A stretch of 64,000 nucleotides of DNA. Origin: Mangifera indica (lineage: Eukaryota > Streptophyta > Magnoliopsida > Sapindales > Anacardiaceae). The notes below the pieces were generated by a model. That model saw only the letters and a list, made by a program, of their open reading frames with translations, ran no database searches and was not told the DNA's origin. The stretch spans positions 7,006,001 to 7,070,000 of the forward strand of contig NC_058152.1 of the NCBI RefSeq assembly GCF_011075055.1. The letters run 5' to 3'. Position numbers and translations under genes: made by a program. Each line of letters begins with the position of its first letter. The stretch's first letter is position 1. Below, in pieces: positions 3,140 to 49,565 of this stretch.

Positions 3140-6100
3140 ATGTTAGTTCTTTTATGTTAAACCCCTAAGTGTTTTTGATAATGATAAAAACAAAAGTTAA
3201 AATGTTTATTAATATCCAAATACTGTGTTAAAAATATTGCCAAATGGACACAATTTGAAAAATGTAAAAACAGGACATGCACGCTCATGTGTCACAATTG
3301 GACACTCGTGTGTTTTCCATTTTACAGGTTAGTATGAGGAGAAAGTCTTTGTACATTCGTCCCTGTTTAAGTTAAAGAGAATTCAATGCAGTCAAGTGTA
3401 GAAACATTACACATGCCCATGTGTTGAATAACATACACTTGTGTATATTTGGGAAAAGACTTATAAGGAGTTTTCCTCATTCAATCTTGTCGTGCTTTAT
3501 AAATAAATTAAAAGGTGAAAACCATGAATGCCCATTCATAAGCCAAACACGCCTATGCATATGCAAAAATTCATGCATTTGCATTCTCGTTTGTTTCTTT
3601 ATTCAATTCCTTATTCATGGCTTTTGGAATCCTAAAAGAACTTCAAACATAAAGAAAGGAACAACTATGTTCTTTAAAGGAACATCCATTAGAATGTATA
3701 TTAAGAAGAAAATTCGACCACTGGGAGCTCTAACTGAGGTTGACCTTACTTAAAAAAAGAAGAAAAACAAGTTAGGGATGCTCATGTTGTAAGGTTTTTA
3801 GGGTACCAATAACTAACAGTGCAATGAAATTTAAAATTAAAAACTAAAACAATCTTGAAAAACCTAGTTAGGATACCCATTTTAAACATAGTAATCATGA
3901 AACATGTAAAACACTCATACGGTGTTTTAGAATTTTATCTACATTGATAGCTTCTTTAATCTTCACTTGGCTTGAGAAAGTACATTCACAAGGCGAAACT
4001 TGGTATCAATGTAGAACACAAACATGAAAATAGAAATCCAGGTAAAAAGATTATTAGGGCTCTTAACTAGAATCACCATTCACAGTTAAAGGAGAAAATA
4101 TAGAACTAGTAGTTAGGGTTTTGTGTTTTATGTATATTTATTATTTTTATACGAAACATCATGCCTTATACATATATGTAGGTATTCGAGCATGGCTAGA
4201 ATTACAAGCATGTATGACACTCTCAATACACAAATGCATTGTTGGCATGAAAGATTGTCTAGTTGGCATTTATCAGGATATTTACAATGTCAGTATTACT
4301 TATGTGTATCAATTGGTATGGCCAGGGCTTGTATACTGGTACACACAGATATGCCAATTGGCATGGCTACAAACTTGTATGGCTGGCATACATATTTGTG
4401 TCGACCAACATGTTTTATTACAAAGTGCCAGTCATCATCATGTATTTGCATGGCTAACACCTCTCTCACCAAGTGCATGGTTAGCACTTCATTATGTCAT
4501 GGTCAAATTGAGTCTTCTCAACCTACTGGACAAACCTAGTCTATTCGCGGTCTCTCTCTCTGTCTTCTTTGAATACTAGGATTGTCAACAAATAATCTAG
4601 TCTTTTGAGTTTGATTCAACTTCTTTATGTGCGTGACCCATAAGCTCTCTATTAAGCTAGTAGTATTCGAATTCAGGATGAATCTAGAGAATGACCAAAA
4701 TTGGCATCTAGTAAAGCATCATGGCCACCCGAATTATAGAGTATTAGCAAACATTTTTAACTTTTACAACATCATAGTTACGTGCAATTCAATCTTTTCA
4801 TCAACTAATATCTTTTAAGGTTAAGACATAGAAATATGTTTATCTTAGTAGTTCCTTGGTATGAACTGATACATATCAATGAATAACATGGATTAGGCTA
4901 CGACGTCATCCCATTATGTCCACAGATTCAAGTATTCATAGATGTCATTCAGTATTCTTATATGAGATATCTTCTCTTGTACTAAAGAGTGATAAATCAT
5001 TTATTGATCTATTATAGCTTTTATGTATCTCATAATATGACCAATTACTATCTTTATAGTTACCTAAATTATGGCAGCACAATGGATAATGTCAAATCAT
5101 ACTAATCTTTACACGAGATATTTTGATGACCTTAAGTCAAATGATCACATGCACCCACAGTATTCAAAGGATTTATTTTATAGACACTAAAGCAACCATT
5201 CATATGGATATCATTTGATCAGATTAGTCTGATAGACACGTGTACAACATACACTAATTTGTTATATCAAACTATTTGTAACAACTTCAATACATGAGAA
5301 CTTTTACCACTTTTGATAGGGTCACTTAACACTATGATAATCTCATCATCATTGCATGTGCCCTTATTCATTACAATGTGGGATTATGGACATTTCTAGA
5401 ATAACTACATAATGTGCACATAGGGTTCTCACCATCAGTCATTAGATCCCCTTTTCACTGTTCCATAATTCCAAAGACATGTTATTCCTATGATATATAA
5501 ATAAACAACATATATCAGATTCCCTTTTCACTGTTCCATAATTCCAAAGATATGTTATTCCTACGATCATATAAATAAACAACATATAAATTGAATAATA
5601 ATAAATCCTTTTATTAATGATTAACATAAAATTATATCTACAAATGTCAAATTCGATTGGCTCTAGTATAGTTACCCTAACACGTGCATCATGCTTTTCC
5701 ATCAAGAAAATGTCTCTTCCAAAGCTCAGCATATACAAAATCCTATCTAACAGTCATATTAGCTATTCCAGCCATCTAAGACTATAAATTAAAAATTTTA
5801 TAAGTTAGAAGTTGTATTCAACCACACTTAGGTAAAAACCTAGATAAACTATTGTATTGGACTCAATCTTAAATCAACTAATGTAACTGAGTGAAATCTA
5901 TAACAAGGGGATTATTTACGAGTAAAACTTTAAGCCAGTTATTTAAAGAAGTGGACGTAAGAGGCTGGAAAGAAAAAACTTCAAACCACTATAAATCTTA
6001 AGCCTGTTAGTTCCTTACTCATTCTTTATGCATTATATTTTGTATTGTGTGCTTTTGATAAATTGTTGAGTATTACTTATGCATAACTATTTTGTTAAAA

Positions 6101-6212
6101 TTGCTTGTGTGATTTTCCTTCATTAATGTTTGTTTAAAAGATTTAATTTGTTTCAAAATTTTAAATAATCCTATTCACCCCACTAGGATTATTATCCATT
6201 AAGGGTTTTTCA
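3140..6212 (+). mobile_element. 5' LTR of SIRE-like Ty1/copia element, split by a nested LTR
   Basis: The LTR starts TGTTAG at 3140 and ends in CA at 6212, directly before a Met-tRNA primer site. Two pieces, 3140-3784 and 5683-6212, carry sequences like SIRE/Maximus-type LTRs: a 'tttttgataatgataaaaac' block near 3173 and a 'cctattcacccc' block near 6170 just before the gag leader. The middle (3785-5682) is an inserted LTR of another family. Without it the LTR is about 1.18 kb. Lineage assignment is from motif resemblance only. Confidence 0.6.
3785..5682 (-). mobile_element. Solo copia-type LTR (family L, copy 3) nested in the SIRE-like LTR
   Basis: On the plus strand it runs from tgttgtaagg (3785) to ccctaaca (5682), so the LTR reads on the minus strand from TGTTAGGG to CA. 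It aligns with 24257-26954 over most of its length: the first 130 bp match 24257-24400, and 4620-5000 matches 24800-25160. No primer site or internal coding sequence adjoins it, so it is a solo LTR. The 5-bp flanks (gctca and cgtgc) do not match, so the target duplication has decayed or an edge is off. A near-exact 70-bp direct duplication lies within it (about 5453-5585). Frames open at 4121-4579 are not coding by any sign I can find. Confidence 0.7.
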
Positions 6213-6214
6213 AT

Positions 6215-6226
6215 TGGTATCAAAGA
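6215..6226 (+). promoter_or_regulatory. Primer binding site (initiator Met-tRNA) of the SIRE-like element
   Basis: TGGTATCAAAGA lies 2 bp after the LTR end (CA at 6212) and matches the 3' end of plant initiator methionine tRNA (TGGTATCAGAGC type) with changes expected of an old copy. Confidence 0.7.
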
Positions 6227-6281
6227 CTAGACTCTAGGTTGCAAAATCTAACCATTTTTAGAGTTTAAGATCCAATTTATA

Positions 6282-7889
6282 ATGGCTAGCACATATACCT
6301 TTGTTTTGCTGAAGGACATAACATTACAAGACCACTATTATTTTATGGGTCAAACTACCATATATGGAATATTAGGATGAAACTTTACATTTAATCAGTA
6401 GATTATAAGTTGTGGAGAATCATAGAAAATGATGACCTTATGCCTAAGGACCCTAGGACAAATTTGCCTAAAACTAAAAATGACTATGATGAGAAAGATG
6501 AAAAATTAATGAGTTTAAATGCAAGAGCTATGAATATGTTGTTTTGTGCTTTAAATTCAGTTGAATTTAATTGTGTTTCCTTATGTGAATGAGGTTAAAA
6601 GATATGGCTATCCTTTATACTACTCATGAAAGAACCCATCAAGTAAAAGAGTCTAAAATTAAGCTCATTATCTGGGAATATGAGCTATTCGAAATGAAGT
6701 AGGAGGAAAACATAACCGACACGTATAAAAGGTTCTCAAACTTGGTTAATAATCTTAAATGACTTGGAAAGAAGTTTGAGACTATCAAACTTGTTAAGAA
6801 GATTCTTCAATCATCACCAAAATCTTGGAACATAAAGGTAACCATAATCAAAGAATCAAAAGATCTCAGCAAAATAGGCATGGATGAGCTTATTAGAAGT
6901 CTATTTACTTATGAGACGAAGAGAAAGCCTAAGAAGGAGGAGACCAAACCAAAGAAAAATCTCACCTTGAAAATGGAAAATGAAGAAAACGATTCCTTAA
7001 AGGATTAGGAAGACATGAGTCTTCTTGTAAGGAAATTCAACAAATTCCTTTCAAGAAATAAAGGAAATAACTTCATGAAATCAAAGTATAAAGAGGATAA
7101 TGATGATGAAATCATATTCTATAAATACAAGAAACCTGATCATATCTAATAAGAGTGTCTTTAACTTATAAAGAGAAAGAATGACAAGAAGTTCAAAAAG
7201 AAGGTGTTTACAGGCATTTGGAATAGAAGCAATAATTCAAGTAATGAAAGTGAGTTAGAGTCTAAGAGAATAAATCTCTACTTCATGGCCATGAGTGAAT
7301 TGAAGAGAGAGGATTGCAATTCTAACTCTTACTTATTTAATGAATAAGAAGCATTTGATTATCTAATGGATGAATATAAATAAATGTGTACTAAAAATAA
7401 ATTATTAAGGAAACAATTGACATGCATTAAAAATGATTATGAAAATCTCATGAAATAGCATGCTAAAATTAAAAAATGTTTGAATTGATTAAAAAAGAAA
7501 AGATTTTAGTATCAAATGATTTAAAAGGCCCTATGAACAAAAATGATGCAATAAGGAAGGAATGATCTAAATCAAATGAGATTTTAGAAAAATTCAAGAT
7601 AGACACAAAAAGGTTAGATGAGATGCTTGCATCTTAAAAAAATGAATTAAATAAAAAAGGCCTAGGTTATGATAAAAGTAATCTTTTGGTTAAATCATAT
7701 AGGCCACTATAAAATTGTCATTTATTGCATTTAAAATGTAAATTTTGTGCTTACATTGGACATGCTATTGGAAAATGTCTTATTAGAAATGACAAACCAT
7801 TCAAAATCTGAAAGGTTTAAGTTCCTAAAGGGACATTGAACACTAACCTAGGTGGACCCAAGACTATTTGGGTACCAAAGAATTCTTGA
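6282..7889 (+). pseudogene. Ty1/copia Gag (SIRE-like), degenerate
   Basis: Translation starting at the ATG at 6282 follows the copia Gag (UBN2 / DUF4219 type) pattern: a Tyr-x-x-Trp-Asn region, then 'LWRIIENDD' near 6410, 'NARAMNMLFCALNSVE' near 6517, 'VKESKIKLI' near 6645 and 'MDELIRSLFTYE' near 6882. A damaged CCHC zinc knuckle follows near 7110, and a second one (Cys-x2-Cys...Gly-His...Cys) near 7740, ahead of a closing 'IWVPKNS' and stop at 7889. In-frame stops (for example at about 6704, 6762, 7006) and frameshifts make it non-functional. Gag would form the cytoplasmic particle that packages element RNA. No protease, integrase or RT follows, because the element is cut off by other insertions. 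Confidence 0.75.
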
Positions 7890-8491
7890 ATTTCTTTGTA
7901 AATGTGTCTTGTAACATTGAAGACCAAAGATTATCAAATGAGTAGCTACACAAGGTAATAATTCCAAAATAGAGATAGGTGAGGTTTAAGACAAACAAAA
8001 AATTAAATCTCTTTATAAGAGCTTGAGATGATCAACGTACTATAAGTATGTACCTAATCCTTTCAAATTGAGAACCATGTGATTTGAATTGGTTGAGTAT
8101 GTGAATATATAAATTTGTTCGATTTTTTTTTTTGAAAATTGATTATCTTATGACCTTTCATGAAATTGGTTGGATGATGTATTTGAATCAGTCAAGTGTG
8201 CTTGATTGAATGATTCCATGTGTATCCTAATTAACATATATGATTATGTGGATATTTGTTATGTCTTACATGCTTGCATATTTATATGATTGGTAGGTTT
8301 TCATTTTTAGTATAGTTTTTGGTTTGTTGACATATATGTGATCTTTGATTTTTGTTTGCATAATTGTGTTTAATACTTATTGTGAAATCAAGTTGAATCG
8401 ATCTGAATTTGTGTTTGAAATTGATCAAAACTTGACTTATAAAAATATTCCTAAAAAACAATCAAGATATCTAAGATTTATATCTTGCAGT
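7890..8491. other. Post-gag sequence of the SIRE-like element, no readable gene
   Basis: AT-rich sequence between the end of the Gag remnant and the gypsy LTR at 8492. I find no protease or integrase motifs. It probably belongs to the SIRE-like element or its target. Confidence 0.35.
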
Positions 8492-8509
8492 TGATGTGAA
8501 CACTATATA

Positions 8510-11500
8510 TAGGCATGTCAATAGGTTGGGTCAGGCCCTATGCCCATATAGTAATGGGCCTTTAGGTCGAGCCAACCCATTGACTTGTGAAGGCCTAAGA
8601 CCTGACTCTATATATATAGGGTCAGACCTGGCCATTTAAACAATATTTTTAAAAAATTTTTAATTAAAATTTTTAAACACAAATTTTTTTCAATTATTAA
8701 AATCGAAAATAGTAGCCCGAATATTTTATTTATAATCTCTCACTTGTGGTGGAGAAATATTGTGGTTACATGATGAAAAATATTATAAATTTATAATATA
8801 GTATAAATAAATTAATTTGCATACTGTATAAATCACAAAATATAAATATAATATATATATTATATCATTTACCTACTCATCTTCAACTTCTAAAACTCTG
8901 AATTCTTTGAAGATATCTTATGCCACACAATTTTCTATTTTGAAATCAAATTTGACCTAATCCTTCATACACATTATCGCTTTGATCATGTTTGAGTGTA
9001 AATTAGATCGCCTATCATCTAGCACGCACCCATCTATACTAAAAACAGATTTTGAAGCTACAGTTAACACTGAAGGTGTTAATAAATCTCGGGTATAGTA
9101 GTAAGCACAAGAAAAGTTTTTGCCTTTTTTTTCCACCATGCTAAAACATCTAATTTTTCAGCATTATATTTTTGAAAAATTTATGGATAATGGTCAATAT
9201 GATATAATTATAAAACTGACTATAATTTGTACTTTGACTGGCAGGTTTTGTACCTTTGCATCAAAGAGACCATATGCGCGACTTTTTATTGTCTGAACTA
9301 TCAAAACTTACCTCTGGTATAGAACTTTTTCCAATCCTTCGATATTTTTATTTATAAATACTATAAATATCAAGTAAACAATCTTGAACATATTCAATAG
9401 AATTAACATTGCCATTAATTGACAAATTTTCATTAATAACATCAAATAAATTTCGTAATCCATTAGTTTTTGCCCTAGGATCTAAAACAGAAATGTAGAA
9501 TAAAGTAAAGAAATTTCACTCCAATATTTTTAAAATTTTTGTTCTATTTACATAAATATATTCTAGAAGTATGATAAGAGTGATGATACTTACGTTCATT
9601 AAAAATATCACTTATTTCTGCTATACTATATATTATTGAACAAGTTATTGGATAATACACTTTTGAGCAATGATTTGTGGCTATCTTCAATGCCTCTAAT
9701 ATGTTCATTAAAGCCATAGCTATCTCCTAATCTTGATCTGTAAAAAAAAAAGATCTGTCGAATCTTTTGGTTGAGTATTGAAGTATCGTGTTATAGGAAC
9801 TTCATATCCTTCGCACTCTTTCAACATAAGGTATGTTGAATTTCACCTAGTTTTAGTATCTATTTTTAATTTTTTTCTTCTAAACCCTATTAATTTACAT
9901 AATTGATGATATACTTGTACTCGTGATTGAGATGATAAAATGTATGCAATGACATATTTAATTACTTGTAAATGTTTTTTAACCAAACTCAAACATTCTT
10001 GAGCTATTAAATTAATAATATGACATGCACACCTAATATAAAATATTTTTACATTAAATGGAGGAAATAAATGATTATAAATATATTCAATAACTTTATC
10101 ATTATTTTTGGCATCATGAAAAATAATTAAAAAATAGAATTATTAATTTTATATTCTTTAAAACTATTTGCTAATGTACGATAAATTGTAAAACAATCTT
10201 GTGGGTATTTTAATTTCTAAATGCAATAATGTTTTTGCATAACTACTAATAAAAATTAATATAATGGGTAGTTACACAAAGATACTTTATATGTTGATTT
10301 GTAACAATATATAAATCATAAGTTATTGAAATAACGTTATTAAAATTACTTAATTCTTCAATAATTTTTAATTTTATTAATTCATAATTTCTCAAGATGT
10401 CTGACTTAAGAGTTGACATAGGAATTCTTCTAAATGCTGGTTGAATATTATTTTGCATTATCCATTCCAAAATTTCCTCTTTTGCATAATTAAAAGGTTG
10501 ATTAGAAACAACTACATACCTAGCCATGTAGTCATACATCTTCATTTGGTTGTATAAGAAAGTTGACATTTCTCCCATGTGTCTAAAACTACTTGGACCT
10601 CTTATTGAATGGGCACTAAGACCAATGGACTGCGATTGAGTGAATGCAATTTGTTTTTATCTTCTGAGCTCATATGGAATTTTTTTACAGTAATCAATAA
10701 TGTGTTGGCGAAGATGTCCAGTCCTACTTATATTTGCACATGTCAAACAAGAACCATAATGTTTACATACTACTCGACGAATTAATTTTCCTTTTATTAT
10801 TTCCTCTATTTAATCGAAGTGCTCTTACACCATTGACGTTTGTTTTCTTTTTCTCTCTGTCGAATAATGTGAAATTATACTTTTACCACTTTCATTTGTT
10901 GGTGCTCCACCTATTCCACCTTATGCATCATTAATAATATCATTAACACCAATATGATAATATTCAAATGGACTAAATTCATTTGACATTGGATCCATTT
11001 GTAATATTTTGTAATGATAAAATTAAAATAAAAAATGAAATTATAAATTGAAAATGTAGATAGTTTCACAAAGAGAGTTGATGAGAGAAAATGATATTGG
11101 AAATATAATGAAAAAATTGAGATTGAGAGATTGAAAAATTGAGAGATTTGTAGATAAAATTGAAAATGAAGAAAAGTTGAATTGGTTTATATAGAGAAAA
11201 ATAAACAAATTAAAAAAATTAAACAAGTAGTCATTGAAAAAGCCAACGACTTCTGCCACAAAGATAGAAGTTGTTGCTTCTGTCTCAGGAGAAACTTGTG
11301 GCAGAAGCCTTAATTGCTTTTGCCACAAGTAAGCAAATACATATTTTTTAATTTTTATTTTTTTACACAGTGTCACATAATACTAAAGCCTTAAGCCCGA
11401 CCCGACAAGCTTATGGGTCTGGCCTAACAAGCTACAGTATCGAGCTAGGCCTTTTCGTGTCGAGCTTCATTTTTATGTTTTAAGTGAGGCCTCTATTTGG

Positions 11501-11522
11501 CTTGACCTAATTGACGTGTCTA
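8510..11522 (-). mobile_element. hAT-superfamily DNA transposon
   Basis: The ends are imperfect 13-bp terminal inverted repeats (TAGGCATGTCAAT on the left, TAGACACGTCAAT read inward from the right; 11 of 13 identical). They are flanked by an exact 8-bp target duplication ACTATATA (8502-8509 and 11523-11530), the duplication size of hAT elements. Subterminal regions are rich in GGCC/GGGTC-type words at both ends, as in many plant hATs. It inserted 10 bp into a gypsy LTR: the intact sister LTR at 14012 shows the empty site. The encoded transposase is broken, so any later mobility would need an enzyme from elsewhere. Confidence 0.92.
8957..10998 (-). pseudogene. hAT transposase (zf-BED type), degenerate
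   Basis: Read on the minus strand from an ATG at 10998. The N-terminus is about 25 residues, then a zf-BED-like segment near 10800-10680 (Cys-Lys-His-Tyr-Gly...Cys, later His-Leu-Arg-Gln-His). Next is 'MARYVVVSNQPFNYAKEE' at about 10524-10470 and 'ITYDLYIVTNQHIKYLCV' near 10330-10280, the usual start of the RNase H-like core with an Asp. The middle (10240-9400) is full of stops but keeps 'FFTDQDxEIAMALMNILEA' near 9740. The C-terminal dimerisation domain is well kept at 9090-8957 ('RDLLTPSVLTVASKSVFS', 'VLDDRRSNLH'). The family uses this domain to assemble the transposase and cut-and-paste DNA in the nucleus. Multiple stops and frameshifts rule out a working protein. Confidence 0.85.
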
Positions 11523-11530
11523 ACTATATA

Positions 11531-12588
11531 CCAATATGACACCCATAGTCAATATTTAAAATCACAACCACAAAAAAGATTAAAACATGTTTATTAGGAA
11601 AACCTTGACCGGATGATTATAAACAATCACGAACTAAAGGTATAAAATGTCACTCCTAAAAACAAGTTAAGAAGGTGAGAGATAAGTCAAGTTTGATTGA
11701 CACAAATATTAGCTTGATAATATCGCAGAGTTTGTAAAAGAACAAAAAGAAAAGTTTTCTTTTTTTCATTCAACAACCAAAGATAGTTGTGTAGTTTATG
11801 GTTACACAACTCTTATATAGGGAAAAAAAATCCTAAACCAACTAGGATATAACTAATCTTAATAAAACCCTAAATCAAACAAATGAGCTTAAGTTAAAAT
11901 AAGATTTTAGCCAAAAACAAACATAAGAAGAACTAAATAAAAACTCAGTATAATTAAACATAATTTAAGTATAATTTTAGGTGCAAAACATAGCCCCTAT
12001 ATAGAGATTATAACTGTTACCTCCAGTTGCATGACCCACAACAAATTAAGCCCAAATTGTGCATCCCTCTTTTGTGTTTTTGCCTAATTGCCCTCAATCT
12101 TGATATTCTTAGGCTTCAATGATGTTTTTTAAGCTTTTGTGACTCCTCCAAGCTATCCAAATCTTGTTGCGCATGATACTTGGCCCAAATATCCTTGTTT
12201 AGCCCAATTAGTGCTTTTTTTATCCTCCTAGCTTTGGCCATTGTCATTGGTCCACTATTGATGCATAAAGGATCATTAGAGTGTTGCTTCTAATTGCATG
12301 ACCCATAACAAATTAGGACCAAATCACGTATTCGCCTTTGTGTTTTGGCCTAATTGCTCTCAATGTTGATCTTCTTGGATTTGAATGATGTTTTTAAGCC
12401 TTTGCGACTCTTCTAAGTTGTCCAAATTGTGTTGCACATGAAACTAGGCCCAAATATCTTTAACTAGCATAATTAGCGTTTTTTTCACCCTTTTAGCTTT
12501 GGCCCTTGCCATTGGTCTAGCATTGATGCATAAAAAATCATCGGAGCAAATTTATCATTCTTCATGATTATTACATTGATTTCCATCA
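11531..12588 (-). repeat. Gypsy 3' LTR (main part) with internal tandem duplication
   Basis: Matches the upstream LTR 14012-14821 along its length but is about 266 bp longer. The extra length is a tandem duplication: about 12017-12283 is repeated as about 12284-12550, each containing 'gcatgaccca(c/t)aacaaatta' and 'gcttttgtgactcctcc'-like blocks. The sister LTR has only one copy, so the duplication arose after insertion. The first 18 bp of this LTR lie on the far side of the hAT element at 8492-8509. Confidence 0.8.
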
Positions 12589-12606
12589 TTCTCTCTCTCC
12601 TCAAAA
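12589..12606 (-). promoter_or_regulatory. Polypurine tract of the gypsy element
   Basis: On the minus strand a GAGGAGAGAGAGAA-type purine run directly precedes the TGATGG start of the LTR. This is the site from which plus-strand DNA is primed in LTR retrotransposons, and it confirms the element's minus orientation. Confidence 0.8.
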
Positions 12607-12616
12607 TGATTTGTTC

Positions 12617-13380
12617 TCAAATTGTCACCTGCATCAAAGGACAAAGATCCAAAACTTTAAATGTAGCACTAACATTATACTTACCAGAAAAATCTATCTT
12701 GTAGGTATTATCATTGATTCGTGTAATCATTTGGAATGGACCATCTCTTCGTAGTTGCAACTTAGATTTCCTTTGGAGTGGAAACCTTTCCTTGTGCATA
12801 TGCACCCAAACCCAATCATTTGGTTTAAATACCACTTTCTTATGTCTTTTATTAACTTGGATTGCATATTGGTCAATTCTCATTTTGTGTGTTGCCTAAC
12901 CTTCTTATAGAGCTATTTAACAAATTCAGCCTTTTATATTCTTATCCTAAATAGGCATCAAGATCATTTTTTCCTTAAAATTGTGGAATCTTTATTTTTA
13001 TTCTACCCAAATCTTTATCTTGCTTTATGCCTATTCTTATCTCCTTTATAGAACTTATCTTTTTGACCTCTTCTACCTTTCACAAATATATCCATATTAA
13101 CAATGGTAACTTGATCATCATCAGAATCCTCTTCATCATCATCTTCAATCACATCATTCCTTCATACATTAAGAGCTTCTAATGGCTACCCTTTTTATAA
13201 ACAAGCGATAACAACATCTTGCTTATGTATTTTGTCTTTAATTTCTCCAAACATGTCGTTGATCCTCTCAAATTATTGTTGTATTGCTCAGACTAAGAAT
13301 GATTCATCTGCCTTTTCTCCCTTATTTATATTATTGTCTCTGCTTATTCACATGATTAAAACCTGAAAAGAATTGTTAGA
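12617..13380 (-). pseudogene. Gypsy Gag remnant joined to integrase C-terminus
   Basis: The part at 12883-12617 is an open frame of 88 codons matching the C-terminal end of Ty3/gypsy integrase: 'KVVFKPNDWVWVHMHKERFP', then 'LRRDGPFQMITRIND', then 'YNVSATFKVLDLCP'. Upstream (12900-13380, minus strand) is a Gag-like stretch with acidic runs and a diverged 'DAYLDW'-type region, interrupted by stops. In a complete element these parts are some 3 kb apart, so protease, RT, RNase H and the integrase core were deleted. The integrase tail stays open, either by chance or because the copy is younger than its neighbours. The function is DNA binding during integration in intact relatives. Confidence 0.7.
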
Positions 13381-14011
13381 AATGACCTCACAACATTCCC
13401 TCACGTGTTTCACTCAACTCACTCTTGTATTGTCCATCAACACTTGTGTTACAATTTTTTCAATTTTGTCCCTTTTTTTTAACTTATACCATTCCCACTG
13501 AGCTCTTTATTGAACTAATAGATCAAACCAAGGTTACCCTTGAAGTAATCTTACCTAACAAATCTCAACAAGGAAACACACATACAAAAGAAAACAAAGG
13601 AAACAAAAGAACAATAAAGAAACAAAAAACATGAAACAATCAAGAAATAAAAGACAACAAGGTGAGAAACAATAAAAAATGAGTTGATTTCAAAAAAGAA
13701 TTTAATTTGATATCATAAGGTGTTGCCTTGCAAATAAGGTAATTTCACACTTCAAATCCAATTCAACTTTTATCTTCTTTTTTTTTAGAACACTCACCCA
13801 ATGAAAATAATTTTAAAAAATGCGGATTAAAATGTAAACTAACAGTATGATATGGATTTAATTAGTTCTAATAATAACTTATGGAACAAAAAAAGAAAGA
13901 AATCTATGTTTTGTATGAAAACGATGCAGAATTAAAGAGATATGATATGAACACTAAGAAAAAAATTTGATAACTAAACTTGAATTAATAACCAAAGTTC
14001 TGATGTTAATA

Positions 14012-41109: not shown

Positions 41110-42089
41110 GTAATGGTCCTAAAACAATTTAATTCAAAGATTAAAACAGAAGGTCTTTGATGGTGGTCATGCCATCACTGAGCTAATCCACTAGTCTTTT
41201 TGCTTACCCTACTCTAATGTCTACCTACAAGCCAAAGCAAAAGACATGAGTGATAATTCACCTAGTAGACACATACAATCACTGAGCATTTCTAGAATAC
41301 CTTTGGATAGTTCGACTATCTATTTATCCATATTATTTAGCATTTTGACACATATCAAATGGATGTCCCAAACACCTCTTAAACCTTAGTGAGAATCAGG
41401 GTGGACATCCCAAATGCCTTTTATAACCCAGGTATCAATAAGACGAACGCTTTAGATGCCTCTTACAACTCATTTACCAATGAGACAAGCATCCCAAACG
41501 TCTCTTACAACTTATGTACTATCACAACAGACATCTTGAATGTCTTTTATTAGAACTTGATTGGAATAGGCATTCTAGACATCTCTTGCATCCCCTTCAA
41601 CTATCATACAAAGGGTAGAACATCTTTTCCCTAACCCTTGGTATAATATTCCCTTTTATATTATCGTGAGTGACGATCATTTGGCTCTAGAAGATGGTCG
41701 TCTTCTCTTTCATGAGGGACAACCGTCCTAAAACAAATACGAACAGTCGTTCCCCTATAAGCTTATTACCACGAGCCTTATCTTAGTCATGGTTAGAATT
41801 ACCAATCTACCTTTGATATACCCATAAATACCATCTCCTACCTTGTGATAGGATAGACATCCCTTACCTCTGTAACTTCTAGAACCTCATCGTTCAAGTG
41901 TTGGTTCAAAAATCCAACAATCTAGAATTAAAGTAGGACTCCTTAAACTTTTTCAATTCACCAAAACCATTCCAAAACACCCATAAACTCAACGATCAAC
42001 ACAACTTGAAATGAATAGAATCCAATTCATGCATATTCCTAGTATTCCATCTTCCTCTAAATCATACTCATACGGATCAATCGTATACA

Positions 42090-42160
<71 letters not shown>

Positions 42161-43227: not shown

Positions 43228-43236
43228 ATATTTTAA

Positions 43237-43335
43237 GGGAAATTTTAAAAAATGGCCAAAATGCCCTCCCATTAAGCAAAAATACCCAAAATCATTATTT
43301 TCAAGCCAAAATGCCCAAAATCACTGTTTCAAAAA
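43237..43335 (+). repeat. MULE left terminal inverted repeat
   Basis: GGGAAATTTTAAAAAATGGCC followed by words such as caaaatgcc and aagcaaaaatacccaaaat. These recur in the right end (49556 inward) with small gaps. The first 15 bases are identical to the right end. Confidence 0.85.
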
Positions 43336-43416
43336 AAATGCCTATGACTTTTTTTAATACCAAAACTACCCTTCCCCTCATATTTATATAACTCTCCCAC
43401 TTACTATAGGGTTTTA

Positions 43417-43635
43417 ATGTAATTTTAGATAAATATGAGAGGTTTTTGGATATTTTACATTATAAAGGCATTTTAATATTTATTTATTTATTTCAAACTT
43501 TTTCTAAAATGTCAAAATTACCCTTTCTTTCATTTATATAACTCCCCTCACTCATTATGGGGGTTAAAATAATTTTAGATAAATATGAGGGGTTTTTGGA
43601 TATTTTACATTGTAAAGGCATTTTCATTTTTCAAC
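43417..43635 (+). repeat. 150-bp direct duplication near MULE left end
   Basis: aattttagataaatatgag occurs at 43421 and 43571, followed in both by 'ggtttttggatattttacatt' type sequence and 'aaaggcatttt'. The offset is 150 bp. It lies between the terminal repeat and the 119-bp array and has no coding signal. Confidence 0.8.
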
Positions 43636-44215
43636 TTTTAGAATTCGAATTTCAGTTCCGTTTTTTCGAATTTCACCGTTTTACGATATATCGATTCGTA
43701 TTTTTCAAATTTCTGAAGGATTTTCCGTTTGTTGCCATTCTAGGGTTTTTCAACTTTTACAATTCGAATTTTAGATTCCGTATTTTTCAGATTTCGGATT
43801 TTATTCGTTTTTCAACGAAGATATCGACTCGTATTTTTTAGATTTCTGAAGGATTTTTCGTTTGTTGCCATTCTAGGGTTTTTCAACTTTTAGAATTTGA
43901 ATTTCAGTTTCATTTTTTCGGATTTCACTGTTTTACGAGATATCAACCCGTATTTTTCAGATTTCTGAAGGATTTTTTTATTGTTGCCATTCTAGGGTTT
44001 TTCAACTTTTAGAATTCGAATTTAAGTTCAGTTTTTTTGAATTTCACCGTTTGATGAGATATCGACTCGTATTTTTCAGATTTTCGAAGGATTTTTTTAT
44101 TGTTGCCATTCTAGGGTTTTTCAACTTTTAGAATTTGAATTTCAGTTTCGTTTTTTCAGATTTCACCGTTTTACCAGATATCGACTCATATTTTTCAGAT
44201 TTTTGAAGGATTGTT
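43622..44215 (+). repeat. 119-bp tandem repeat, left array (5 units)
   Basis: Five units ending in a '(c/t)t(g/c)gaaggat'-type anchor at 43713, 43846, 43965, 44084 and 44203. The last three steps are exactly 119 bp; one step is 133 bp because of an insertion. Each unit holds 'attctagggtttttcaactttta', 'aattcgaatttcag' and 'cgatatcgactcgtatttttcag'-like blocks. It is the inverse of the right array. Frame 43557-43841 only reads the repeat. Confidence 0.93.
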
Positions 44216-44685
44216 GGATTTGGTATCAGGTTGTTGGATTCGGTGGATTCATGGGTATTGTGGACTTTGGTGACATGTCTTGCACGTGTAGAAAATTTCA
44301 GCTTTCACGTATTTCGTGCAACCATGCCATTGCCGTTGCAAGACATATGAGACTGACGAATGTGCACGCATGGGTTCATCCATTCTTCCGCACCGATATT
44401 TATCGTGCAATATATCAGGAACCAATCAATCCTCTTGGAAATCAATGTGATTGGTTACACTCACCGGAAGACAGAGTTATATTGCCCCCCGTCCTCGATA
44501 GTCGTCGTCCAGGTCGTCCAGCCAATAGAAATCGACGTCCATCACAAGGAGAAATTGTTACACCGAGGATTTGTAGTCGTTGCCATGAACCGGGGCATAC
44601 ACGAACCCAATGTAAATCCCCAGCACCGGTCCCGAGCTCTACCCCCCAGCGTTCACATACAAAAGGCAAAGGAACGAGATCTTGA
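44203..44685 (+). pseudogene. MULE transposase (MURA) C-terminal part: SWIM finger and zinc knuckle
   Basis: The frame is open to the stop at 44683-44685. From about 44254 it matches the tail of MURA-type transposases: 'IVDFGDMSCTCRKFQLSRIS' with 'CNHAIAVARHM' gives the SWIM zinc finger (Cys-x-Cys...Cys-x-His). 'HPFFRTDIYRAIYQEPINP' follows, then a Pro/Arg-rich linker with 'RRPGRPANRNRRPS', then a CCHC knuckle 'CSRCHEPGHTRTQC' near residue 130. In active relatives this tail lies C-terminal to the MULE DDE core and binds element DNA in the nucleus. Here the N-terminal and catalytic regions are absent: the 119-bp array runs directly into it, and about 15 leading residues are repeat-derived. A clean frame over about 145 codons suggests recent truncation. 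It could be a last exon whose other exons were lost. Confidence 0.85.
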
Positions 44686-45041
44686 CATACTTATACTCAA
44701 TTTTGTTTTTTATATGATTCTTCATTGTTCTACTTCAGGTTTATGTAACCGATGTATTTTTATTATTGTTTCAAATGTGTAATTGTATTGTCATTTGATG
44801 TAATAAATTTAGTGTTACTTAATTTCAGTATTATTTTATTTTCTCTAATTGTTTCAATTGTGTTAATGTTTGAGTAATTATACGTTTTTATTGTTTTTTC
44901 ATGACAAGATTATTTAAAAAATGAACTCAAATACGATACACATCCATATATAACCACAAATAAAGTATATCATATACATATGAAAATACAATAAATATAT
45001 ACATCTAAACATAGAAATAATGATAAATATACATCCGTGAG
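44686..45041. other. Intergenic gap between convergent MULE genes
   Basis: About 355 bp of AT-rich sequence between the stop codons of the MURA tail and the Ulp1-like gene. It probably holds the 3' untranslated ends of both. Possible AATAAA-like signals occur at 44801 (taataaattt) on the plus strand. The frame at 44914-45141 (minus) overlaps the end of the protease in another frame and is not a separate gene. Confidence 0.5.
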
Positions 45042-46410
45042 CTACTCGATACAATGAAAATACAACTGTGTCGCTAATCGTCGACGCATAGAGGTAGACG
45101 ACTCTCGGGGAAAAACGTAGCTCCGTGCCAATGCCAAACACTCAAAAAATCACAACATAAAAACGCCACAGTCACCGGAGCCCAACCCCTATTGAGGGAC
45201 ATCTGACGCTCGATGTAAAGTGAGGGGATCATGTCGTGGAGTCCTCCTAGAAGCTGTTCAAAAAGTCATCGCCTCTAATAACGCGGGAATAAAGGTCATG
45301 TATGGTCGCATGCGACCCAATGTCTGAATCATACACCATATGAAACATCTGAATCATACACCATAATCGACCACTCACGGAAATCTATAACTCCAGCGAC
45401 CCCATGTGCGTTCTCGAAATTTATAGGGATGAAAACCTATAAACAATGAGACATTTTAGTTACAATTCGTTGTCGTTAACCAATTGAATATAATAGAAAT
45501 ATATATAAACTCTACCTGATCGACCATCCCCCATGGTTTGTACAACAATCCCGGGGTGTACGATGCATCAACCATCCTCTTGAAGAGCCCCGAAAACTCA
45601 AACTCTCCAATCGGTGTAGTCTGCCAACTCTTCCAGGCCATCTCAATATGGCCTCCGAAGAATGTGTGGGCAGTCGTCCAACGCTGTGAGATAGTCGACT
45701 GGTGATCGTCCTGCTGCCGACGTAATAAAGGCAAAAAGGAATCCACATGCTAAAATGATATAAACAAGTTCACGTGTTAGTTATTAATAAATATATCTAG
45801 CTTTTTATCAAATTATATAGTATAGACAACTCACATCGTCGGTCAACCATTCGTGTAACTCTACAACAAGCCTCCAGAAGTTGTCCTTTGACTTTGACCC
45901 GATGAAGTAGACATCATGAGAGTCGGAAGCCGCAGCGCTGGTGTACCATGTGAGGAAAGATTCCTCACGCTCAGAGGCAGAGGATGGAATGGTCGTAGGT
46001 TGCCGTTTCGCCCTCCCTTTGAATGGATTCGTATACGGGGTGCGAACCAGCGGACCCTTCCAGACGATCCGGCCACGTGCTGTACGAATCATCTACATGA
46101 TCCCAAAAAAATAATTAATTCATCATTCATTTTACGCAACAATTAGCATTAATCGATTTATCTTACCTTCTCCATGTATGCAGGAGGAGGTTTAGCTGGA
46201 GAATCTTGAAACACGGTCAAGTCCACCACGCGTGCTCCCTCGACAGACTAGAGAATACAAATTTTGAACATCTCAATGACCAGTATATACAACTATTTAT
46301 ATACTAAGTATAATTGATATACCTCAATAAGGATGGCCTCAAAATCATCCTCCTGCAAGTCCTCCTCCTGTGAACCAATATCCACAATGTTTTTGGTCGA
46401 GCTCGGAAAT
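45042..46410 (-). pseudogene. Ulp1-like (C48) cysteine protease gene carried by the MULE, five exons
   Basis: Exons on the minus strand: about 46410-46323, 46247-46167, 46092-45835, 45749-45516, 45436-45042. The four introns are 75, 74, 85 and 79 bp, all GT...AG, and the three complete internal exons are multiples of 3, so the frame stays open across them. Exon 3 ends and exon 4 begins 'EWLTDD'/'HVDSFLPLLRRQQ', the entry of Ulp1 domains in plant MULEs. Exon 5 starts '[19 protein letters not shown]' (catalytic His; the usual next Trp is Gly), then '[10 protein letters not shown]' (catalytic Asp), and at 45173-45165 'SGDCGVFML' (catalytic Cys) before 'SSTSMRRRLATQLYFH' and a stop at 45042. A 25-bp tandem duplication (45323/45348) and at least one more frame change between Asp and Cys, plus stops, break exon 5. 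The family removes SUMO-like tags; the role in MULEs is unknown. First exon start is uncertain. Confidence 0.85.
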
Positions 46411-46469
46411 CAGCAAGTAACCATAATCGCTCGTCCTGAAAAACAGTCAAAACATCATTAAATAAAATT

Positions 46470-48250
46470 CTTCAGAAATCTGGAAAATACGAGTCCATAT
46501 CTCGTAAAACAGTTAAATTCGAAAAAATAGAACTGAAATTCCAATTTTAAAAGTTGAAATAACCTAGAATGGTAACAATCGAAAAATCCTTCAGAAATCT
46601 GGAAAATACGAGTCTATATCTCATAAAACGGTGAAATCTGAAAAAACAGAATTGAAATTCGAATTCTAAAAGTTGAAAAACCCTAGAATGGGAACAATCA
46701 AAAAATCCTTCAGAAATCTGAAAAATACGAGTCCATATCTCGTAAAATGATGAAATCTGAAAAAACGGAATTGAAATTCAAATTCTAAAAGTTGAAAAAC
46801 CCTAGAATGAAAACAATCGAAAAATCCTTCGAAAATCTGAAAAATACGAGTCTATATCTCGTAAAACGATGAAATTCGAAAAAACGGAATTGAAATTCGA
46901 ATTCTAAAAGTTGAAATACCCTAGAACGGAAACAATCAGAAAATTCTTCGAAAATCTGAAAAATACGAGTCCATATCTCGTAAAACGGTTAAATTCGAAA
47001 AAACAAAATTGAAATTTGAATTCTAAAAGTTGAAAAACTCTAGAATAGGAACAATCGAAAAATCCTTCAGAAATCTGGAAAATACGAGTCCATATCTCGT
47101 AAAACGGTTAAATTCAAAAAAACAGAACTAAAATTTCAATTTTAAAAGTTGAAATAACCTAGAATGGCAACAATCGAAAAATCCTTCGGAAATCTGAAAG
47201 ATAAGAGTCCATATCTCGTAAAACGATGAAATTCGAAGAAACGGAATTGAAATTCGAATTCTAAAAGTTGAAAAACCCTAGAATGGAAACAATCGAAAAA
47301 TCCTTCGAAAATCTGAAAATTACAAGTCCATATCTCGTAAAACGGTTAAATTCGAAAAAACAAAATTGAAATTCGAATTCTTAAAGTTGAAAAACTCTAG
47401 AATGGGAACAATCGAAAAATCCTTCAGAAATCTGAAAAATACGAGTCCATATCTCGTAAAACGGTTAAATTCGAAAAAACGGAACTAAAATTTCAATTTT
47501 AAAAGTTGAAATACCCTAGAATGAAAACAATCGAAAAATCTTTCGAAAATCTGAAAGATAAGAGTCCATATCTCGTAAAACGATAAAATTCGAAAAAACG
47601 GAATTGAAATTCGAATTCTAAAAGTTGAAAAACCCTAGAATGGGAACAATCAAAAAATCCTTCGAAAATCTGAAAATTACAAGTCCATATCTCGTAAAAC
47701 GGTTAAATTCGAAAAAACGAAATTGAAATTCGAATTCTTAAAGTTGAAAAACTCTAGAATGGGAACAATCGAAAAATCCTTCAGAAATCTGAAAAATACG
47801 AGTCCATATCTCGTAAAATGGTTAAATTCGAAAAAACGGAACTAAAATTTCAATTTTAAAAGTTGAAATACCCTAGAATGACAACAATCGAAAAATCTTT
47901 CGAAAATCTGAAAGATAAGAGTCCATATCTCGTAAAACGATAAAATTCGAAAAAACGGAATTGAAATTCGAATTCTAAAAGTTGAAAAACCCTAGAATGG
48001 GAACAATCAAAAAATCCTTCGAAAATCTGAAAAATACGAGTCCATATCTCTTAAAACAATGAAATTCGAAAAAACGGAATTGAAATTCGAATTCTAAAAG
48101 TTGAAAAACCCTATAATGGAAACAATCGAAAAATCCTTCGGAAATCTGAAAAATACGAGTCCATATCTCGTAAAATGATGAAATTCAAAAAAAAGAATTG
48201 AAATTCGAATTCTAAAAGTTGAAAAACCCTAGAACGGAAAAAACAGATAT
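46470..48250 (-). repeat. 119-bp tandem repeat, right array (15 units)
   Basis: Anchor cttc(a/g)(g/a)aaatctg occurs at 46470, 46589, 46708, 46827, 46946, 47065, 47184, 47303, 47422, 47541, 47660, 47779, 47898, 48017 and 48136: 14 steps of exactly 119 bp with no indel. Units carry 'gagtccatatctcgtaaaacg', 'gaaattcgaattctaaaagttg' and 'ccctagaatggraacaatc'. It is inverted relative to the left array at 43622-44215. It has no spacers and no coding sense. Confidence 0.97.
46946..48016 (-). repeat. 357-bp higher-order repeat within the right array
   Basis: Three unit types recur in the same order. The type with 'aactaaaatttcaattttaaaag' is at 47065, 47422 and 47779. The type with 'gaaagataagag' is at 47184, 47541 and 47898. 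The type with 'cggttaaattcg(a)aaaaacraaattg' is at 46946, 47303 and 47660. Three 3-unit blocks of 357 bp fill 1,071 bp. Units outside this block do not follow the pattern. Confidence 0.9.
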
Positions 48251-48364
48251 AAAATTCGAAAACTACACAATCAAAAACCCTAGATAAGAAAAATCTCAAT
48301 TTACCCCCTCATAAAAACTCAAACTGAAAGGTCTACTGTGTTCTAACGAATTACCCCAGCTTCC

Positions 48365-49540
48365 CAATATTTTAAAAAAGCTACTTTACCCCCCTAAAAA
48401 CAGCCAATCTTGGCTGAACGTGGGATGCGCGATTTTGACGTGGGAAACACTGTTCCCACGTCGGACTGCCGATCTCTTCGGCAGTCATTTTCGGCCAAAT
48501 TTTGGTCGTTTCAGCCTCCGATTTTCACATAAATCAGATCTAAATGTTGTCTAACACAAAACCCCTCAATCAATTGAACAAAAACAACCAAGAATCAAAA
48601 CATTTTAAGCATTATTCAAACCGTAAACCCTAAAATTTCAAACCGAAAAATCTCAATCAAATCTCAATAATATGAGCAATAACTTGATCCAAACAAGATT
48701 ACGAGAGATATACTAACCTTCTTTGCCATTTGTGGGTGCTGGAAATCAAGAAAATCGACGGAAATCAGATCGCCCGTGGGATGAACGTGGTGACGTGAAA
48801 ATTTTTGAAATTTGAGAGAAATGCACAGTAAATTCGCTAATATTAACGTGGGAAATAGGAAATTTTTTTCTGTATTATATATGTGGACATTTTCGTAATT
48901 TTGCCAAACTCGCGTTGACGTGATAAATTTCAAAAAAACCCCACGTGGGATAAGGATCTCCCACGTCACCCCAATTGTTTTAAAAAGCTAAGTTACCGCC
49001 CTAAATTAGGCTGAACGTGGGATTTTGATTTTGACGTGGGAAACACTGTTCCCAATCGGACTGCCGATCTCTTCGGCAGTCATTTTCGGCCAAATTTTGG
49101 TCGTTTTAGCCACCTATTTTCACATAAATCGAATCTACACGTTGTATAACACAAAACCCCTCAATTAATTCAACAAAAACAACCAATAATCAAAACATTT
49201 TAAGCATTGTTCAAACCGTAAACCCTAAAATTTTAAACCGAAAAATCTCAACCAAATCTCAATAATATGAGCAATAACTTGATCCAAACAAGATTACGGG
49301 AGATGTGATAACATTATTTTCCATTTTCGGTTGCCGGAAAGCAAGAAAATCGGCGAAAATGACGTTCGCCGTGGGATTGCCGTGGGATGCGTTAAAAATT
49401 CGAATTTTCTTTGAATTGTACAGTGAAAATTTGCTGTGTTTATATATGGGGGCATTTTCGTCATTTCACAAAACCTGGGCATTTTTGCTTAAACCTGAAT
49501 TTTTTGGGCAATTTCGCTTAGACCCCTTTGATTTTGCCTA
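48365..49540. repeat. 595-bp direct duplication at MULE right end, with hairpins
   Basis: gagcaataacttgatccaaac is at 48674 and 49269; gactgccga is at 48464 and 49059: both offsets are 595 bp. Each copy holds a 9-bp stem hairpin gactgccga/tcggcagtc with a 5-nt loop (48464-48486, 49059-49081). Copy 1 also has a 10-bp stem gacgtgggaa/ttcccacgtc (48437-48462), damaged in copy 2. It is richer in G+C than the surroundings. It is followed by terminal-repeat-like sequence in both copies (near 48885 and 49440). Confidence 0.9.
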
Positions 49541-49556
49541 ATTTTTAAAATTTCCC
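49450..49556 (-). repeat. MULE right terminal inverted repeat
   Basis: Inverted match to 43237-43335. Reading inward from 49556 it starts GGGAAATTTTAAAAA and contains gcaaaaatgccca and gaaaatgcccc. It is directly followed by the target duplication copy at 49557-49565. Confidence 0.85.
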
Positions 49557-49565
49557 ATATTTTAA

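Follow-up and report, generated by a model that had tools for sequence, protein, structure and literature searches.

Inverted arrays of a 119-bp repeat upstream of both genes in a family of mango Mutator-like elements, and their possible role as docking platforms

We analysed a 64-kb stretch of the mango (Mangifera indica) genome (NC_058152.1, hereafter the window), in which a deleted copy of a Mutator-like element (MULE) of 6,320 bp, carrying two inverted arrays of one 119-bp unit, occupies positions 43237-49556. In sister copies these arrays lie within the ends of the element and upstream of both of its genes, one for the transposase and one for a protein with a DUF1985 domain. The arrays may be family-specific docking platforms for the element's own DUF1985 anti-silencing protein, a reading to which we give an even chance of being correct. 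We see in this family a known strategy in unusually large form, an elaborate variant and not something categorically new.

Arrays in the window and across the genome

Both arrays were recovered by Tandem Repeats Finder (TRF) and by a profile of the unit, with the unit numbers and the opposite orientation given in an earlier note on this DNA. The left array (43627..44220, minus strand) has five units (TRF: 4.9 copies, 82% matches) at spacings of 119, 133, 119 and 119 bp, and the right array (46464..48234, plus strand) has 15 units with a three-unit higher-order repeat (TRF: period 119, 14.9 copies, 88% matches) and 14 successive copy starts each exactly 119 bp apart, as the note had counted. 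The profile found no further units elsewhere in the 64-kb window. The exact 9-bp target-site duplication (TSD) that had been described is also present, ATATTTTAA standing at both 43228..43236 and 49557..49565. An exact 20-mer of the unit gave 744 + 776 (1,520) matches in the 391-Mb assembly and its reversed control gave none, which excludes chance.

A 597-bp array probe returned at least 202 matches, and the best 40 of 1,492 candidates scored merged to 39 loci. The first set that we examined comprised 21 loci (the window, 19 single loci and an extended locus on C12) picked by similarity to the window; for this reason a second set was added, consisting of six of the 16 clusters on C1 that hold the exact 20-mer, chosen with few, one-strand matches as the likeliest strays. 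The array adjoins the terminal regions of this MULE in all 27 loci (20 of the first set, six of the second, and the window). Within the second set the terminal region, at 77-94% identity, lies directly at the array in L030, L031 and L034 and no more than 150 bp away in L032, L033 and L035. This rules out a genome-wide satellite unrelated to MULE ends, which the earlier note had held open. A TSD of 9 bp was read by eye from the flanks in ten of the 13 elements for which a single stretch covers both ends (that of L022 lies in a T run) and one of 10 bp in another, the exceptions being L017 (6 bp) and L026 (none); MULE TSDs range from 8 to 11 bp. Since the 27 loci differ in unit number and 11 of these 13 elements have a 9- or 10-bp TSD, the arrays are unlikely to be an assembly artefact.

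The 15-to-5 layout, which had seemed unusual, is ordinary within the family, where copies have between 0 and 44 units per side. The mirror order is minus then plus in all 19 loci that have both arrays: 18 of the 21 in the first set (L009 and L019 have a left end without a left array, and L023 is cut), with L032 of the second set as the nineteenth case. The same order was found in 7/7 two-strand clusters of the 20-mer, among 22 clusters on C1 and C2 that cover the first 100 of the 1,520 matches. A left array is present in 15 of the 18 elements, from both sets, for which the left end is in hand. By rough extrapolation from the 1,520 exact 20-mers, which are held by 11-40% of the units detected in the two sets, the genome would contain some 4,000-14,000 units. 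We found no published description of this mango family in a search covering part of the literature.

Genes of the element and placement of the arrays

The near-full-length sister copy of 11.6 kb (L011 and L029) carries three left units, pieces of the transposase, DUF1985, Peptidase_C48, 15-16 right units and the right end. Its transposase, read rightward in L029, matches PF10551 (E 3e-21), PF03108 and PF00872 and has a SWIM domain, and the opposite, leftward strand encodes DUF1985 (PF09331, E 6.5e-26) and Peptidase_C48 (PF02902, E 2.4e-22; minus strand in L011). The MULE transposase domain and DUF1985, both present in the sister, are absent from the window copy, which retains only the C-terminus of the transposase and part of C48. 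The former lies at 44221..44685 (plus strand; SWIM, PF04434, E 7.2e-6), lacks the catalytic part, has 93% amino acid identity to the sister's piece and shows a zinc knuckle by eye; the latter, an Ulp1 (Peptidase_C48) remnant without the DUF1985 exon, lies at 45045..45436 (minus strand) in two pieces with 90-91% amino acid identity to the sister's C48. The protease gene that the earlier note took for cargo flanked by the arrays is thus, by these matches, a remnant of the element's own second gene, of the VANC/KIU type. As a separate observation, the annotated mango protein P0007 contains both MULE and DUF1985 domains, which probably reflects a fusion, either in the gene model or in the transposon gene itself.

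The arrays hold a regular position relative to both genes. The start codon of DUF1985 lies 52-132 bp inside the inner edge of the right array in 13/13 first-set loci with residue 1 aligned, in five of which (L012, L014, L022, L026 and L028) the DUF1985 exon is reduced to its start; in the second set this start lies 117 bp away from the array in L034 and overlaps it by 10 bp in L031. On the left, the transposase starts 316-328 bp inward of the array in 5/5 loci, and the polarity of the unit relative to the gene is the same upstream of the transposase as upstream of DUF1985. Because the genes are convergent and each has an array upstream in the same polarity, the arrays must be inverted with respect to one another, and no hairpin is needed to account for this.

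DUF1985 is abundant in this genome, where the best 150 of 1,608 candidates were scored; in the six loci that we read, the array sequence follows the DUF1985 lineage. Upstream of DUF1985, L037, L038 (the L011 copy itself) and L041 (the L023 locus; both already in the first set) have the window-type array and 92-100% amino acid identity to L011; L040 (81%) has a diverged 119-bp array, which we call type B, with 72-75% identity over the array; and L039 (G000:C24; 40%) has an unrelated tandem array of 20/40 bp. Thus one of these three arrays stands upstream in five of the six loci. A search with the L040 array (best 40 of 1,404 candidates scored) gave 40 type-B loci after merging. Judged by coordinates only, and among the best-scored lists, DUF1985 lies no more than 1.5 kb downstream, and in the same orientation, of 17/40 type-B and 12/34 window-type (type-A) arrays, the latter count leaving out five of the 39 loci with both strands listed. 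Comparing these lists with the 150 scored DUF1985 places, we found no DUF1985 on the wrong side or strand of a listed array, and at least 29 of the 150 have a listed array upstream.

The coordinates also point to mixed A/B elements. In eight cases a type-B array is matched with a left end that has 96-98% identity to the window's, and at four of these places (C1, C2, C4 and C18) a window-type left array is listed as well; at C2, C4 and C18 the left array matches type B at 74-76%, and C1 and C2 hold exact window-type 20-mers. A type-B right array beside a window-type left end means that strict self-complementarity is not kept.

Ends of the element and evolution of the arrays

The left terminal region (43237..43626, plus strand) is nearly free of CpG, and a search with it returned the window and 39 other places at 96-98% identity over nearly its full length (best 40 of 896 candidates). 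The right terminal region (48235..49556, plus strand) adjoins the array in 20/20 sister loci of the first set. By local alignment of the two ends, the terminal inverted repeats (TIRs) lie at 43237..43317 (plus) and 49476..49556 (minus), 15 perfect base pairs within a weak match of about 81 bp. The right terminal region also contains a direct duplication spaced by 595 bp (48461-48760 and 49056-49355, 91%); 595 is 5 x 119, but the duplication has no array-like similarity to the unit, and we take the figure as coincidence. Part of the left terminal region is repeated with a period of about 392 bp in L009, L012, L014, L018, L022, L029 and L030, and an (AC)n microsatellite of about 30 copies lies just outside the MULE at 42087-42147.

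We compared 360 full units from 21 loci, sharing ties. When its own array is set aside, a unit has its nearest relative on the same side of another element in 271.75 of the 272 right and 87 of the 88 left cases, and nothing among these 360 units points to exchange between the two sides. Left and right arrays are thus distinct lineages, each travelling with its own end. On its outer side the right array stops in a single register (unit position 105-112) in 21/21 loci. Higher-order repeats, by contrast, are specific to the array: three units in the window (units 5-7, 8-10 and 11-13 of the right array, with units 10 and 13 identical) and in L009, and two units in the left arrays of L010 and L017; the right arrays of L012, L014 and L028 are near-homogeneous (96-99%). 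The units are rich in CpG, with an observed/expected ratio (O/E) of 2.1-2.2 and eight CpG sites in the consensus, as compared with 1.19 for the right end, 0.04 for the left end (15 copies) and 0.36 for the rest of the window.

Docking platforms and competing explanations

In the favoured reading, a DUF1985-Ulp1 protein encoded by the element would dock on the 119-bp arrays, as VANC does on VANDAL tandem-repeat motifs. With the protein docked, the promoter regions of the two genes would stay demethylated and active, and the active promoters would in turn supply transposase; copies that have lost their genes, such as the one in the window, would keep the address and be served in trans. Local unequal exchange or slippage would alter the length of the arrays, and address and protein lineage would drift together. 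The model for this comes from Arabidopsis. VANC proteins contain DUF1985, bind motifs in the tandem repeats of their own VANDAL family and co-evolve with them (PMC5735166; PMC10398659), these repeats are rapidly gained and lost (PMC5735166), and VANC genes that carry Ulp1, termed KIUs, act on their own family (2026 review, PMC13317346).

Several observations weigh against docking. Cytosines in the units have undergone C-to-T type change more often than A/T positions have changed in all three contexts (in the right units, CG 9.3%, CHG 22.7% and CHH 9.1%, as against 1.7%). The arrays have therefore not escaped methylation at all times, an argument against any protection that lasts. The excess extends to the right end (3.3, 5.5 and 2.3%, as against 0.7%) and to the middle part, and is absent only for CHG positions of the left end (0 of 26 cells). 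No 9-mer stands out as a conserved core in 439 units (permutation p 0.48), and the structure model of DUF1985 (pLDDT, a model confidence score, of 62) is too poor to reveal a DNA-binding fold. The left array is missing from L009, L019 and L030 in the presence of the left end, and in L036, whose DUF1985 has 49% amino acid identity, no array was seen in the flank. Stop codons interrupt the reading frame of the sister's transposase, and DUF1985 and Ulp1/C48 are joined into one presumed spliced gene from their order and strand only. We also looked at the most conserved window of the unit, AAGTTGAAA, which shares AGTTG with the published VANC6 motif, and judged the likeness too weak to use.

The main rival, which we consider unlikely, is a foldback-type platform, with the arrays as multiplied sites at which the transposase would bind and which would help to bring the ends together; this has been proposed for Galileo, whose THAP domain binds sites within the tandem repeats of the TIR (PMC3688188); variable TIR repeats are likewise known in the MULEs Muta1 (PMC5225508) and Tm1 (PMC3169594). 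The mango arrays are indeed inverted at both ends and are kept in gene-free copies with 9-bp TSDs (L010, L013 and L020). However, a foldback element has a long TIR that itself consists of tandem repeats, whereas these arrays start 390 bp from one end and 1.3 kb from the other, outside the 81-bp TIR, and the consensus unit has no 10-mer in common with the terminal 81 bp of either end, which rules out multiplication of the TIR itself. In addition, the left end is retained by the three elements that lack a left array, one of which, L019, has a perfect 9-bp TSD, and near-identical left ends occur with right arrays that differ by about 25%.

Rather doubtful, in our estimate, is the idea that the arrays do nothing for the element, having arisen by tandem duplication near the promoters and then expanded neutrally while being carried along. 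The great variability in unit number, the array-specific higher-order repeats, the lack of a conserved core motif and the three elements without a left array would all suit such a history. It fits less well with the persistence of left and right arrays as separate lineages over 21 loci, with the retention of arrays by diverged copies, or with the presence in a sister lineage of its own version at the same place.

The earlier note had suggested that transcription across the element could yield long double-stranded RNA, and as a physical possibility this stands: the longest ungapped complementary arms of the window arrays measure 402 nt (85-88% complementarity), and in the 4/4 elements chosen for this comparison the arms are 86-90% complementary over 586-1057 bp, those of L010 lying 14 bp apart, and its inner 1,385 nt fold at -782 kcal/mol as compared with -281 for one mononucleotide shuffle. 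Hairpin RNA from the mirrored arrays might then feed RNA-directed DNA methylation through small interfering RNAs and silence the family, either as host control or as self-limitation, and the CpG-rich units with their methylation-type decay would accord with this. We nevertheless hold it improbable that the arrays exist as such a source, as the convergent genes already account for the inversion, left and right arrays show no exchange, and the eight type-B right arrays sit with a window-type left end, the left arrays at C2, C4 and C18 being about 75% like type B. Finally, it is very improbable that the arrays are multiplied promoter or enhancer modules for host factors with no element-encoded partner, since, fitting as their place and polarity upstream of both genes are and well known as TIR promoters are for Mutator (PMC3310237), such modules do not by themselves explain the match between array and DUF1985 lineage, though linkage could.

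Returning to docking, we put forward tentatively, as a rather unlikely prospect, a fuller version in which the arrays before both genes would be the address of the DUF1985-Ulp1 protein, gene-free copies would parasitise the system with longer arrays, and the A/B elements would be bilingual intermediates in which address and protein are changing together. Copies without the transposase start have a mean of 7.8 left units and those with it 3.4, a difference that is not significant (Mann-Whitney p 0.12, 12 versus 5; cut arrays and the second locus set were left out). The five copies that keep the start, L012, L014, L018, L022 and L029, have only three to four left units each. In the gene-free L010, L013 and L020, the two arrays meet, giving hairpin-like copies.

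Relation to known systems and significance

Set beside VANDAL/VANC, the mango family is alike in combining a transposase gene and a DUF1985 gene with family-specific noncoding tandem repeats, and differs, as known here from sequence, in having large inverted arrays of a single 119-bp unit ahead of each of its two genes, with up to 44 units per side. It shares an Ulp1-domain gene opposite the transposase with the KAONASHI (KI/KIU) MULEs of Arabidopsis and the ULP-carrying MULEs of grapevine and melon. The KI-MULEs are called non-TIR, whereas the mango element has a weak TIR and inner inverted arrays, and in the portions consulted the descriptions of KI/KIU and ULP-carrying MULEs make no mention of arrays of the mango kind. 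Foldback-type MULEs (Tm1, Muta1 and FARE, the last compared through citing papers only) also have inverted blocks of tandem repeats in variable number, TSDs of 8-9 bp and gene-free derivatives, but the repeats of Muta1 and Tm1 are 12-15 bp long and part of the TIR, whereas the mango unit is 119 bp long, subterminal and upstream of two genes. Finally, the tandem-TIR MULEs (Ferguson and Jiang 2012) resemble the mango family in that a module of the end is multiplied in amplified families; there it is the TIR itself, with which the mango unit has no 10-mer in common.

VANC anti-silencing has been worked out in Arabidopsis, and to this mango adds a large number of natural copies. Their unit numbers of 0-44 per side, their two diverged array types, and the mixed and gene-free elements among them would make a natural series, graded in dose and specificity, in which to study how a transposon protein recognises copies of its own family and how the address evolves. 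The family is also an example of how satellite-like arrays can be dispersed through a genome by a MULE.

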